Positions 41,218 through 45,391 of a stretch of 64,000 nucleotides of DNA are shown here, in pieces. Below the pieces are notes generated by a model. It searched no databases and was not told the origin of the DNA. It saw only the letters and a program-made list of their open reading frames with translations. The stretch lies in contig NZ_CP051131.1 in assembly GCF_013378075.1 (NCBI RefSeq), positions 2,430,501 through 2,494,500 of the forward strand. The letters run 5' to 3'. The first letter of the stretch is position 1. Every line of letters starts with the position of its first letter. The translations under genes and the position numbers were made by a program. The stretch is from Parasphingopyxis algicola (GTDB lineage: Bacteria > Pseudomonadota > Alphaproteobacteria > Sphingomonadales > Sphingomonadaceae).

Positions 41218-41835
41218 ATGATCCGCATCCTCCCACTTCCGCTTCTCGCCGCGCTCCTGCTTGCCGGCTGTTCGTCGCCGGACGACCGAGCCGCCCCGCT
41301 TGAAGCGGATCCCGATCCGCAGGTCGCGTTCATGGAGCGGCTGTCCGAGCTGTGCGGCCAGGCCTTTGCCGGGCAGCTGGTATCCGACGATCCCGCCGAT
41401 GCCGAGATCGCGGCAGAGCGCCTCGTCATGCACGTGGCCGATTGCGCGCCGGACCGGATTCGCATCCCCTTCCATGTCGGCGACGATCGCTCGCGGACCT
41501 GGGTGATTACCGATACCGGCACCGGGCTGCTGCTCAAACATGATCACCGGCATGCGGACGGCAGCGAGGACGCCGTCACCCAATATGGCGGCGAGACCGA
41601 CGATCCGGGCAACGCGACCCGGCAGGAATTCCCGGTCGATGCGGAATCGATCGCGCTGTTCGAACGCGAAGGGCTGACCGCATCGGTCGCCAATGTCTGG
41701 GCGATGGAGGCCGATGATGCCCGCTTTGCCTATGAGCTGCGCCGGCCCGCGGGCGAGAACGAGCGCTTCTTCCGGGTCGAATTCGATCTCACCGCGCCGG
41801 TCGAAACGCCGCCCGCCGCTTGGGGCAGCGAATAG
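41218..41835 (+). CDS. lipoprotein, unknown function
   Basis: A 205-residue lipoprotein with lipobox LAGC (Cys18) and a mature domain rich in Asp/Glu, with Cys in ELCGQ and DCAPDRI. The segment HVGDDRSRTWVIT looks like a strand of a beta-sandwich. The Met at 41218 was chosen because it starts the signal sequence; the frame upstream overlaps the DUF72 gene on the other strand. No family was recognised. Confidence 0.7.
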   Translation: MIRILPLPLLAALLLAGCSSPDDRAAPLEADPDPQVAFMERLSELCGQAFAGQLVSDDPADAEIAAERLVMHVADCAPDRIRIPFHVGDDRSRTWVITDTGTGLLLKHDHRHADGSEDAVTQYGGETDDPGNATRQEFPVDAESIALFEREGLTASVANVWAMEADDARFAYELRRPAGENERFFRVEFDLTAPVETPPAAWGSE

Positions 41836-41973
41836 CGATTTCGCGGTCCGTATCGGAAATTCGGCAAAAACCATCCTATTCGTTGGGAAAATACGCCAAC
41901 AGTTTGCGCGCAATTATATGTCGCCAGATAGCGATTTTCGCGTAACCATCTGAAAAACAAGAATATCCGAAAA

Positions 41974-41991
41974 TTGGCACGGTCCCTGCTT
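41974..41991 (+). promoter_or_regulatory. sigma-54 (-24/-12) promoter for the small peptide-PspC operon
   Basis: TTGGCACGGTCCCTGCTT has GG at 41976-41977 and GC at 41988-41989, separated by exactly 10 bases, matching the TGGCACG-N4-TTGC consensus with one change (C for the first T of TTGC). A start near 42001 would leave a 40-base leader before the first peptide gene. GCGATTTCGCG at 41834 and a related GCGATTTTCGCG at 41930 could be activator sites. In enterobacteria phage-shock genes are sigma-54 dependent, which fits the downstream PspC gene. Confidence 0.7.
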
Positions 41992-42043
41992 AATGTTGGA
42001 TGAACCGGCGGAACGGTCTGCCGGGACCAACAGGAGAAACACC

Positions 42044-42157
42044 ATGTCGATCAATTTCAGCAATCTGCAGAGCACCGCCTTTTCCGCCGTCGCCGCCTTC
42101 ATCGTCAGCGCCGTCTGCATCAGCGCCGCCGTCGGTCCGGTCCTTCCCGTCGCCTAA
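42044..42157 (+). CDS. 37-residue small membrane protein (copy 1)
   Basis: A 37-residue peptide starting MSINFSNLQSTAF and ending in VGPVLPVA, with one hydrophobic segment covering residues 13-30 and a single Cys (25). An AGGAG site lies upstream. It shares 28 of 37 residues with the next gene, so the two are tandem paralogues. They sit between a sigma-54-type promoter and a PspC gene, suggesting a role in membrane stress, which is inference. Confidence 0.65.
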   Translation: MSINFSNLQSTAFSAVAAFIVSAVCISAAVGPVLPVA

Positions 42158-42208
42158 TCGGGCACGGGACGACCGGGACACCCTCCCTCTTTCACGAAAG
42201 ACACGATC

Positions 42209-42322
42209 ATGACCTTCAACCTTTCCAATCTCCAGAGCACCGCCGTTTCGGCCATCGCCGCCCTGCTCGTCAGCGCCGTCTGCATCAGCGCCGCCATCGG
42301 CCCGGTCGTTCCGGTCGCGTAA
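42209..42322 (+). CDS. 37-residue small membrane protein (copy 2)
   Basis: A tandem paralogue of the preceding gene (MTFNLSNLQSTAV, ending IGPVVPVA), with the same length, one hydrophobic segment and the same Cys25. Its leader (TTTCACGAAAGAC just before GATCATG) is repeated before the PspC gene at 42372, so the units arose by duplication. The ribosome site is weak (GAAAG). Confidence 0.65.
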   Translation: MTFNLSNLQSTAVSAIAALLVSAVCISAAIGPVVPVA

Positions 42323-42371
42323 ATCGTCCGGAACCGCCGAACCCCAAACCCTTTTCACGAAAGACCAGATC

Positions 42372-42554
42372 ATGGCCCAGAATTTCGCCCTCGACCGCAG
42401 CAACGCCAAATTGATGGGCGTGTGCGCCGGCTTTTCCCGCTGGACGGGCTGGAACGTCATGGCGATCCGTCTCGGCCTCATCGCGCTGACCCTGTTCGCC
42501 CTCGGTCCGGTCGCGATCCTCGCCTATCTGCTCGTCGGCTGGGCCGCCGACTGA
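42372..42554 (+). CDS. PspC domain protein
   Basis: A 60-residue protein made up almost entirely of a PspC domain: RSNAKLMGVCAGFSRWTGW followed by a hydrophobic helix (about residues 33-56). PspC is the membrane partner of the phage-shock response. The short, single-domain form is common in alphaproteobacteria. It lies 49 bases after the second peptide gene and shares its leader repeat, so all three probably form one operon. Confidence 0.85.
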   Translation: MAQNFALDRSNAKLMGVCAGFSRWTGWNVMAIRLGLIALTLFALGPVAILAYLLVGWAAD

Positions 42555-42649
42555 GGCCCGCCCCGCACATCCGCTTTCGCACTGTCTGAATTTTAACCTT
42601 CTGCCGCATAGAATCGCCATCGGGTCGCTCCGAATGGAGGTGGGAGAAC

Positions 42650-43066
42650 ATGTTCGCGGATATCCGGGCCTTGTTTGACGAGATACTGGCCATGGCCGAG
42701 GCCTTCGATCGGCTCGATACGCTGGAGCCGGCCGACAAGGCGCGCGAGCTGATCCGCCTGCGCCGCGACTATTCCGAAAAGAACGCCAGGGTCGCCGCGC
42801 TGATCGAGGCGCAGATCTGCCAGCCGCTCGAAAGCCGGGCCGATGCGCAACCCCTGCTCCGCCGCTATCGCGACATGGTGAACGAAGCGCGCGGCGCCGT
42901 CGCCGAGCATCAGGCCAGCTGGCCCGCGACCCAGATCGACACCGATCCCGACGCCTATCATCTCTCCGTCCACCGCATCTCCGAGATGCAGTCCGACCAT
43001 CTCGCCTGGAAGACCGGTACCTTCCTGCCCGAGGCCGAGCGGCTGCTGCGGGCCGCCGCCGCCTAG
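42650..43066 (+). CDS. conserved hypothetical helical protein
   Basis: A 138-residue, entirely helical, acidic protein with segments DIRALFDEILAMAEAFDRL, ARELIRLRRDYSEKNARVA and a C-terminal WKTGTFLPEAERLLRAAA. It may fold as a helical bundle. A strong GGAGGTGGGAG site precedes the ATG. Its stop overlaps the convergent GFA gene by 4 bases. No known family could be named. Confidence 0.6.
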   Translation: MFADIRALFDEILAMAEAFDRLDTLEPADKARELIRLRRDYSEKNARVAALIEAQICQPLESRADAQPLLRRYRDMVNEARGAVAEHQASWPATQIDTDPDAYHLSVHRISEMQSDHLAWKTGTFLPEAERLLRAAAA

Positions 43067-44430: not shown

Positions 44431-44477
44431 ATTCCCCTCCCCTCGATGGGGAGGGGTTAGGGGTGGGGTGATCTCTC
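44431..44477 (+). repeat. GC-rich palindromic repeat, forward copy 1
   Basis: A palindrome CCCCTCCCC-TCGAT-GGGGAGGGG (44434-44456) followed by TTAGGGGTGGGGTGATCTCT. The same block recurs nearly identically at 45015-45061 and, inverted and diverged, at 44832-44879 and 45538-45583. It overlaps the 3' end of the DUF559 gene, supplying its last codons and stop. Confidence 0.85.
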
Positions 44478-44813
44478 CACCAAGCACTCCGCTATCCGCT
44501 CAGCCACGCCTTCCGGATTTCGTAGAATATCGGTATTCCAGAATCGTAACACCTGATACCCGTCCGCCTCGATCACGGCATCACGCTGCTTGTCATCCTC
44601 CCCACCATGCTGCCCGCCATCGGCCTCGATGGTGACCTTGTATCGATGACTCGCAAAGTCGCAGATGAAGTTCCGGATCGGCACCTGCCGCCGGAACCGC
44701 GCTTCGGGAAATTTCTCGCAGAGCAGACGCCACAACTTCTTCTCGGCATCGGTCGGTTCACTGCGGAGGCGCCGCGCGCGCTGCGTCGATCCGGGAGGAG
44801 GATGTCGTTTCAT
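44457..44813 (-). CDS. DUF559 (Vsr-like) endonuclease domain protein, copy 1
   Basis: A 118-residue protein of the DUF559 family, which has a Vsr/very-short-patch-repair-type PD-(D/E)xK-like nuclease fold. ARFRRQVPIRNFICDFASH, VTIEADGGQHG and the RFWNTDILRN segment carry the likely catalytic residues (Asp in CDF, Glu in IEADG, His in QHG). The last residues ERSPHP and the stop are encoded inside the flanking palindromic repeat. A second copy lies at 45041. The role is unproven; family members are common as stand-alone genes near repeats. Confidence 0.82.
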   Translation of the reverse strand: MKRHPPPGSTQRARRLRSEPTDAEKKLWRLLCEKFPEARFRRQVPIRNFICDFASHRYKVTIEADGGQHGGEDDKQRDAVIEADGYQVLRFWNTDILRNPEGVAERIAECLVERSPHP

Positions 44814-45014: not shown

Positions 45015-45061
45015 ATTCCCCTCCCCTCGATGGGGAGGGGTTAGGGGTGGGGTGATCTCTC
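45015..45061 (+). repeat. GC-rich palindromic repeat, forward copy 2
   Basis: Identical over more than 40 bases to the block at 44431 (ATTCCCCTCCCCTCGATGGG and the following TTAGGGGTGGGGTGATCTCT) and again overlapping the 3' end of a DUF559 gene. Confidence 0.85.
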
Positions 45062-45391
45062 AGCCAAGCACTCCGCTATCCGCTCAGCTACACCTTCGGA
45101 ATTGGTCAGGATATCGGTATTCCAGAAGCGGATCACACGATATCCGTCCGCCTGAATCACGGCGTCCCTCTGTTTGTCATCTTCGCCGCCATGCTGCCCG
45201 CCATCCGCCTCGATGACGATCCTGTGCCGATGGCTCGCAAAGTCGCAGATATACTGCCGGATCGGCACCTGTCGCCGAAAGCGCGCCGCGGCAAATGTCT
45301 CTCCGAGCAGGTGCCATAACGCCTTCTCGACATCCGTCGGCTCGCCGTGCGCGCCGCGCCGCGTCGAACCGGGAGGGGGACGCCGTTTCAC
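45041..45391 (-). CDS. DUF559 (Vsr-like) endonuclease domain protein, copy 2
   Basis: A 116-residue paralogue of the gene at 44457 with the same nuclease-like motifs (ARFRRQVPIRQYICDFASH, IVIEADGGQHG, RFWNTDILTN) and the same repeat-encoded ending ERSPHP-stop. The start is GTG. The copies differ mostly at the N-terminus and scattered sites, so the duplication is not very recent. It is flanked by a forward repeat (45015) and an inverted repeat (45538). Confidence 0.82.
   Translation of the reverse strand: MKRRPPPGSTRRGAHGEPTDVEKALWHLLGETFAAARFRRQVPIRQYICDFASHRHRIVIEADGGQHGGEDDKQRDAVIQADGYRVIRFWNTDILTNSEGVAERIAECLAERSPHP

Follow-up and report, generated by a model that had tools for sequence, protein, structure and literature searches.

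Positions 41883 to 42554 of the window, the 64-kb stretch of DNA analysed here (C1:2430501-2494500 of a host genome that consists of one 3.67-Mb contig), hold a compact plus-strand unit in which two small peptide genes precede a gene for a short PspC protein, with a predicted sigma-54 promoter and a predicted PspF-type enhancer dyad upstream. The features are as follows.

41883..41899, plus strand: PspF-type UAS dyad TTGGGAAAATACGCCAA, matching TTRG-N9-CYAA at 8/8 and lying 91 bases ahead of the sigma-54 motif
41974..41990, plus strand: sigma-54 promoter TTGGCACGGTCCCTGCT, -24 GG at 41976-41977 and -12 GC at 41988-41989
42001..42001, plus strand: transcription start as predicted from the motif, about 12 bases after the GC
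42005..42024, plus strand: predicted 5'-proximal mRNA hairpin CCGGCGGAACGGUCUGCCGG, -13.0 kcal/mol
42044..42157, plus strand: peptide 1, 37 aa, MSINFSNLQSTAFSAVAAFIVSAVCISAAVGPVLPVA, with AGGAG at 42032-42036
42209..42322, plus strand: peptide 2, 37 aa, MTFNLSNLQSTAVSAIAALLVSAVCISAAIGPVVPVA, 76% identical to peptide 1
42372..42554, plus strand: short PspC, 60 aa, PspC domain only (PF04024, E 1.1e-11)

Sigma-54 sites were scored against YTGGCACRNNNNYTGCW, a looser form of the consensus with 13 positions in which GG and GC are fixed. The window promoter matches at 13/13, and is the sole site on either strand of the 64-kb window to reach at least 12/13. A preliminary description had placed GG and GC 10 bases apart in a sigma-54 promoter lying 53 bases before a peptide-peptide-PspC operon, and the coordinates agree on each point: TTGGCACGGTCCCTGCTT spans 41974-41991, the first ATG at 42044 is 53 positions beyond 41991, and the genes follow in the order peptide 1, peptide 2, short PspC. 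Its remark that the motif is one change from consensus stands relative to TTGGCACGNNNNTTGCT, the stricter consensus, and falls relative to the looser form, where the match is complete. The promoter assignment is also supported by the presence of rpoN in the genome (one match, PF04552, E 3.4e-65) and by motifs of 12-13/13 at all eight congeneric orthologues. No sigma-70 promoter was found in 41800-42700. A chance motif was considered and rejected, as the site is the only one of its kind in the window and the combination of dyad and promoter occurs once genome-wide, with controls at 0.

The enhancer dyad is the only 8/8 example in the 64-kb window. Searching the 3.67-Mb genome with a strict DNA pattern (TTGG-N9-CYAA-N60-90-TGGCA-N7-TGC) returned one match, the window site, and the reversed pattern used as a control returned 0; being strict, the pattern passes over the pspA (TTAG) and the imperfect pspA2 dyads. 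The dyad ahead of this genome's pspA, TTAGCGTAAAATACTAA, is of the TTAG type and has the same type and position as that of the window, and most promoter regions of the genus have a 17-base TTRG-N9-CYAA dyad some 90-92 bases ahead of the motif. Among 11 listed sigma-54-like sites of the genome, a list that leaves out the pspA promoter (TGGCACA), the dyad is present at two, the window (8/8) and the second psp locus (7/8), and absent from the other nine. As a separate observation, two divergent sigma-54-like sites without a PspF dyad stand 0.2 kb apart elsewhere in the genome (L022 and L023; C1:1878606 minus and 1878808 plus), ahead of what look to us like exopolysaccharide genes.

E. coli K-12 pspA carries a dyad, TTAGTGTAATTCGCTAA, at -80, which we take to be a PspF site. 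The best dyad at E. coli pspG is 6/8, at -67, and no better than background, so the dyad is not fully validated as a PspF site; two UASs at pspA and one at pspG are described for E. coli (PMC3709507).

The regulator itself is encoded elsewhere in the genome, in the canonical psp locus, above the equivalog cut-off (TIGR02974, 484.5 bits; cut-off 443.55). Five strong sigma-54 activators are encoded, of which one PspF, one NtrX and one PEP-CTERM regulator exceed their cut-offs and an NtrC-like and a LuxO-like protein fall under the NCBIfam cut-off. Fourteen family genomes chosen for testing likewise each encode one PspF above the equivalog cut-off. Together, these sequence features make control of the window operon by PspF and sigma-54 very probable.

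PspC domains occur at three places in the genome. The canonical locus (L012) has pspF divergent from pspA-pspB-pspC, with all four products over NCBIfam equivalog cut-offs; a second pspA-pspC locus (L013) encodes a PspC that scores 39.5 bits, under the equivalog cut-off; the window is the third. All three open with a sigma-54 motif and then a small peptide gene, and their four peptides have nine columns in common that never vary. When the genome was searched with a peptide profile, all five positions with E<=0.001 fell within these three loci, and the next match (E 0.0013) lacks a sigma-54 motif of at least 11 upstream of its ORF. In the second psp locus the stop of the leader peptide overlaps the pspA2 start as TAATG. 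That locus also holds a partial direct repeat (L013:4938-6372, minus strand), with the leader peptide and the 5' part of pspA2 present twice in tandem; the first pspA2 copy is therefore truncated. In the window downstream of the operon, two similar neighbouring minus-strand genes (44457-44813 and 45041-45391), presumably DUF559-type endonucleases, are accompanied by repeated flanking sequence.

The short PspC belongs to the PspC family (44.8 bits to PF04024, cut-off 25) and falls below the TIGR02978 equivalog cut-off (43.4 bits against 104), aligning with positions 6-57 of the 121 in the model, to which the main-locus PspC scores 116.5 bits. From its sequence, the window protein thus appears to be a membrane-only PspC without the C-terminal half of the full protein. 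The C-terminal region of PspC is reported to be important for secretin-dependent induction in Yersinia (PMC9239133). Because the short protein lacks that region, signalling in the manner of full PspC is improbable, and it probably cannot signal in that way. Comparing the PspC profile with known structures gave one match, at E 0.5, which we took as chance.

The two peptides each have one hydrophobic segment and contain no K, R, D or E. Evidence that they are coding comes from substitution patterns: for peptide 1, pN/pS is 0.07 and 0.08 against two orthologues, indicating mostly synonymous change, and a less clear 0.62 against a third; for peptide 2 it is 0.16 against one orthologue. Neither peptide matched a family over cut-off in Pfam or NCBIfam, including any PspD or PspG model that these libraries may contain, and the peptide profile found 0 chains among relatives of known structure. 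Among 62 peptides retained after filtering from short-PspC loci, Lys or Arg stands before the segment in 53, Asp or Glu before it in 17, and a charge after it in seven. This charge distribution predicts an N-in/C-out topology, and we therefore picture the peptides as single-span proteins of the inner membrane. Ala is the C-terminal residue in 54/62 of the filtered set, 35 of them ending Ile-Ala. Conservation is otherwise weak, with a mean column identity of 28% in the diverse set.

The leader mRNA may also be structured. In most short-PspC leaders the apex of a predicted hairpin lies near +14, and hairpins of -8 kcal/mol or lower occur in 57/62 related leaders versus 99/320 random 40-mers from the same loci, a high background. 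With single-base shuffles z is below -1 in 51/76 leaders, and in the same folding comparison a stable hairpin is missing from several pspA leaders. Our guess is that the hairpin protects the transcript. No known RNA family was detected at E<=1 in 41830-42650.

The unit recurs in the genus and the family. By family we mean the Sphingomonadaceae grouping used for the genome set, which NCBI splits and which we take to be Sphingomonadaceae in the broad sense. Orthologous short PspC genes were found in 8/9 congeners at 68-88% identity, the ninth genome being 83% complete. The eight carriers have one to three peptides each, and in seven of these orthologues, the exception being L064, a dyad of 7-8/8 lies at near-fixed spacing.

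A wider search with the short PspC took the best 80 of 495 relatives as named loci, the nearest of them from Parasphingopyxis and some of them from the same organisms as the congeners. Of these 80, 62 have a PspC 59-76 aa long. Among these 62 of the best 80, the promoter lies within 500 nt in 59, with 53 at 13/13, and a small ORF is present in 58 of the 59 promoter-bearing loci (L109 is without one). The exceptions are L122, which has no promoter, and L175 and L179, where the promoter is 1.26 and 1.36 kb upstream and other psp-type genes intervene. Within the same best 80, a dyad of at least 6/8 accompanies 49/58 assessable short-PspC loci versus 10.6% of 8000 random anchors, and one of at least 7/8 accompanies 28/58 versus 1.1%; the remaining 9/58, including the congener P. 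marina (L064/L104), reach only 5/8. Longer-PspC loci of the best 80 show a related arrangement, with the promoter and a dyad of at least 6/8 ahead of a recognisable pspA in 16/18 (no such unit in L155 and L162). Fifteen of these 16 units have a leader ORF, of 44-60 aa in 13 and 168-169 aa in two, and L157 has none.

Some leaders ahead of pspA are of a different kind. In L068, L117, L153, L196 and L284 the position is taken by a secreted protein of 162-172 aa, with no micropeptide; those of L068 and L153 have sub-threshold TonB C-terminal matches, and those of L117, L196 and L284 were classed as secreted-type by size and position. One family genome of 44% GC (G033) has a 172 aa leader ahead of pspA.

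The DNA pattern alone matches 84/199 family genomes, with the reversed pattern at 0; the strict form is missing in the other 115/199, a congener (G004) among them. Thirty of the 84 loci were read for a hydrophobic ORF of 24-75 aa starting 20-70 bases past the predicted start. Such a peptide (36-54 aa) lies directly downstream in 28 of the 30, versus 76/3000 random positions in the same loci (2.5%), the two exceptions being L267, with pspA at +611, and L271. The peptide profile is insensitive, finding 19/99 order genomes (19/38 in the family, 0/61 others) and missing G023, where L097 and L259 show a leader clearly.

Peptides of this type are also found away from PspC. The profile gave 40 matches at E<=0.01 in the 99 order genomes, 29 of them no more than 2.5 kb ahead of a PspC domain; the remaining 11 represent nine places without PspC within that distance. 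A sigma-54 motif of at least 11/13 precedes eight of the nine (L226, L228, L244, L245, L246, L248, L249 and L250; not L247), and five (L228, L244, L245, L246 and L248) have a dyad of at least 6/8 at -90 or -91. Tandem peptides occur in L244 (two), L245 (two) and L248 (three), where the listed ORFs show no pspA. In L226, L249 and L250 the peptide precedes another gene, presumably short-chain-dehydrogenase-like, and there is no dyad at -90. At L228:1500, the sigma-54 motif and a 6/8 dyad at -91 precede a 98 aa secreted protein that has the N-terminus of the peptides; it matched no Pfam family over cut-off and looks to us UrcA-like.

In the class, PspA was found in 19/114 genomes, 17 of them outside the family, and the pspA start was clear in ten readable loci from other orders. 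Nine of the ten have a sigma-54-like motif (at least 11/13) upstream of pspA (L191 is without). In five, pspA follows the motif at 22-52 bases with no peptide, and in four (L190, L194, L198 and L200) motif and pspA are separated by an ORF of 46-59 aa whose C-terminal end is hydrophobic. By eye, these four resemble each other and not the sphingomonad peptides. An unrelated peptide in this position in other Alphaproteobacteria hints that an effector arm of this kind may be older and wider than the sphingomonads.

Among the closest parallels is E. coli pspG, a unit outside pspABC that codes for a small membrane protein and answers to PspF (PMC2763126, PMC3709507), as the window unit very probably does too. 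PspG differs in being 80 aa long, against 37 aa for the window peptides, and in its two predicted TM helices (PMC2763126) against their single hydrophobic segment. Within the genome, the canonical locus and the window unit share promoter type, dyad, leader-peptide family and PspC domain, whereas pspA, pspB and pspF are all absent from the window unit, whose PspC is missing its C-terminal half. In that respect it resembles the described stand-alone PspC-domain proteins, which consist of the PspC domain alone, about 50 aa (PMC9239133), but unlike them it belongs to a recurring sigma-54 operon with micropeptides.

A possible parallel is on record for Zymomonas mobilis, a member of the Sphingomonadales. 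There ZMO1062, a candidate relative annotated as 'putative phage shock protein pspD', is numbered directly before pspA (ZMO1063), and both are up at 45 C (log2 30 vs 45 C of -2.33 and -2.9; PMC8237431). Higher pspA, pspB and pspC transcripts under ethanol are also recorded in this species (PMC3495753). Literature searches, with subscription journals largely outside their coverage, found no description of these peptides, and the terms 'sphingo' and 'small protein' are absent from the main text of two Psp surveys (PMC11237479, PMC9239133).

The sequence evidence supports the promoter, the enhancer type, the presence of PspF and RpoN, the operon order, the coding nature of the peptides and their recurrence in the family. 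We favour, with some reserve, reading the window operon as an accessory member of the PspF regulon that supplies PspG-like inner-membrane effector peptides and a membrane-only PspC. The canonical psp locus would supply PspF, and PspA would restrain it until inner-membrane stress sets it free. PspF would then bind the dyad at 41883-41899 and drive sigma-54 polymerase at 41974-41990, yielding a transcript that would start with a stable hairpin and encode two near-identical inner-membrane peptides and the membrane-only PspC. The peptides would act as stress effectors in the inner membrane beside PspA, PspB and PspC, in some loci with no PspC gene nearby. PspF binding, the induction conditions, the topology and the effector function are what we infer in this scheme, and the role of the peptides as membrane effectors seems to us somewhat better than an even call.

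The preliminary description had suggested another possibility, that the phage-shock system here is a reduced one, its PspA and PspB replaced by the peptides. One sigma-54 operon does hold peptides and PspC together, but pspF/pspABC is complete in this genome and a further pspA-pspC locus accompanies it, and this gene content contradicts a reduced system; with rpoN also present, the operon is therefore better seen as an accessory unit. Related peptides also precede pspA itself and stand at PspC-less promoters, and are therefore additions to PspA and PspB and not substitutes for them. We regard the reduced system as extremely improbable. Hardly more credible is control of the promoter by another activator, whether the NtrC-like protein, NtrX, the PEP-CTERM regulator or the LuxO-like protein: the genome does encode five strong sigma-54 activators, and PspF binding here is a prediction, but the dyad recurs at the same spacing in the pspF-pspA intergenic region, in this genome and in most congeners, a dyad lies at -80 of E. 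coli K-12 pspA, and nine of the 11 sigma-54-like sites lack one.

Two other rivals concern what the peptides do, and both are unlikely without being negligible. The slightly stronger is that translation of a hydrophobic leader peptide regulates that of the pspC or pspA gene downstream, by membrane insertion, stalling or reinitiation, for which SecM, VemP and MifM are models. Its appeal lies in the position of the peptide as the first ORF past the promoter at almost every locus scanned, in the TAATG overlap with the pspA2 start, in the frequent terminal Ala and Ile-Ala, and in the unrelated peptide that occupies the same place in 4/10 other-order loci, which could mean that position matters over product. 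Tandem copies (1-3 per operon), peptide operons without PspC nearby and the weak conservation fit a pure leader poorly. The other, which we consider marginally less probable, is that they are membrane-depolarising dormancy peptides of the YohP or Hok kind, switched on by PspF and lowering energy use in stress. Size and hydrophobicity fit, and E. coli YohP, of a membrane class below 50 aa, is reported to lower membrane potential and to induce PspA and PspC (PMC12719787). YohP and the window peptides are thus both tiny membrane proteins tied to the Psp response, but production of YohP induces Psp, whereas the window peptides appear to be PspF targets. The Psp effectors of E. coli, moreover, are reported to maintain pmf (PMC2763126), which argues against a depolarising role.

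Membrane effectors within the PspF regulon remain our preferred reading of the peptides. The phage-shock response is among the classic membrane-stress systems, and how its effectors work beyond PspA is not yet clear. Recurring peptides under apparently the same activator, at three loci in this genome, offer a compact handle on it. The promoter-enhancer pattern recovers members without protein similarity, and a part of this well-studied regulon that extends across the family may have stayed hidden because short ORFs are left out. It is an evenly balanced possibility that the main output of the sphingomonad PspF/sigma-54 regulon is a set of undescribed, fast-diverging inner-membrane peptides of 27-60 aa, which stand first in nearly every unit, are often in tandem and are sometimes perhaps the sole product. 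If so, the sphingomonad Psp response would have a micropeptide effector arm that annotation has overlooked.
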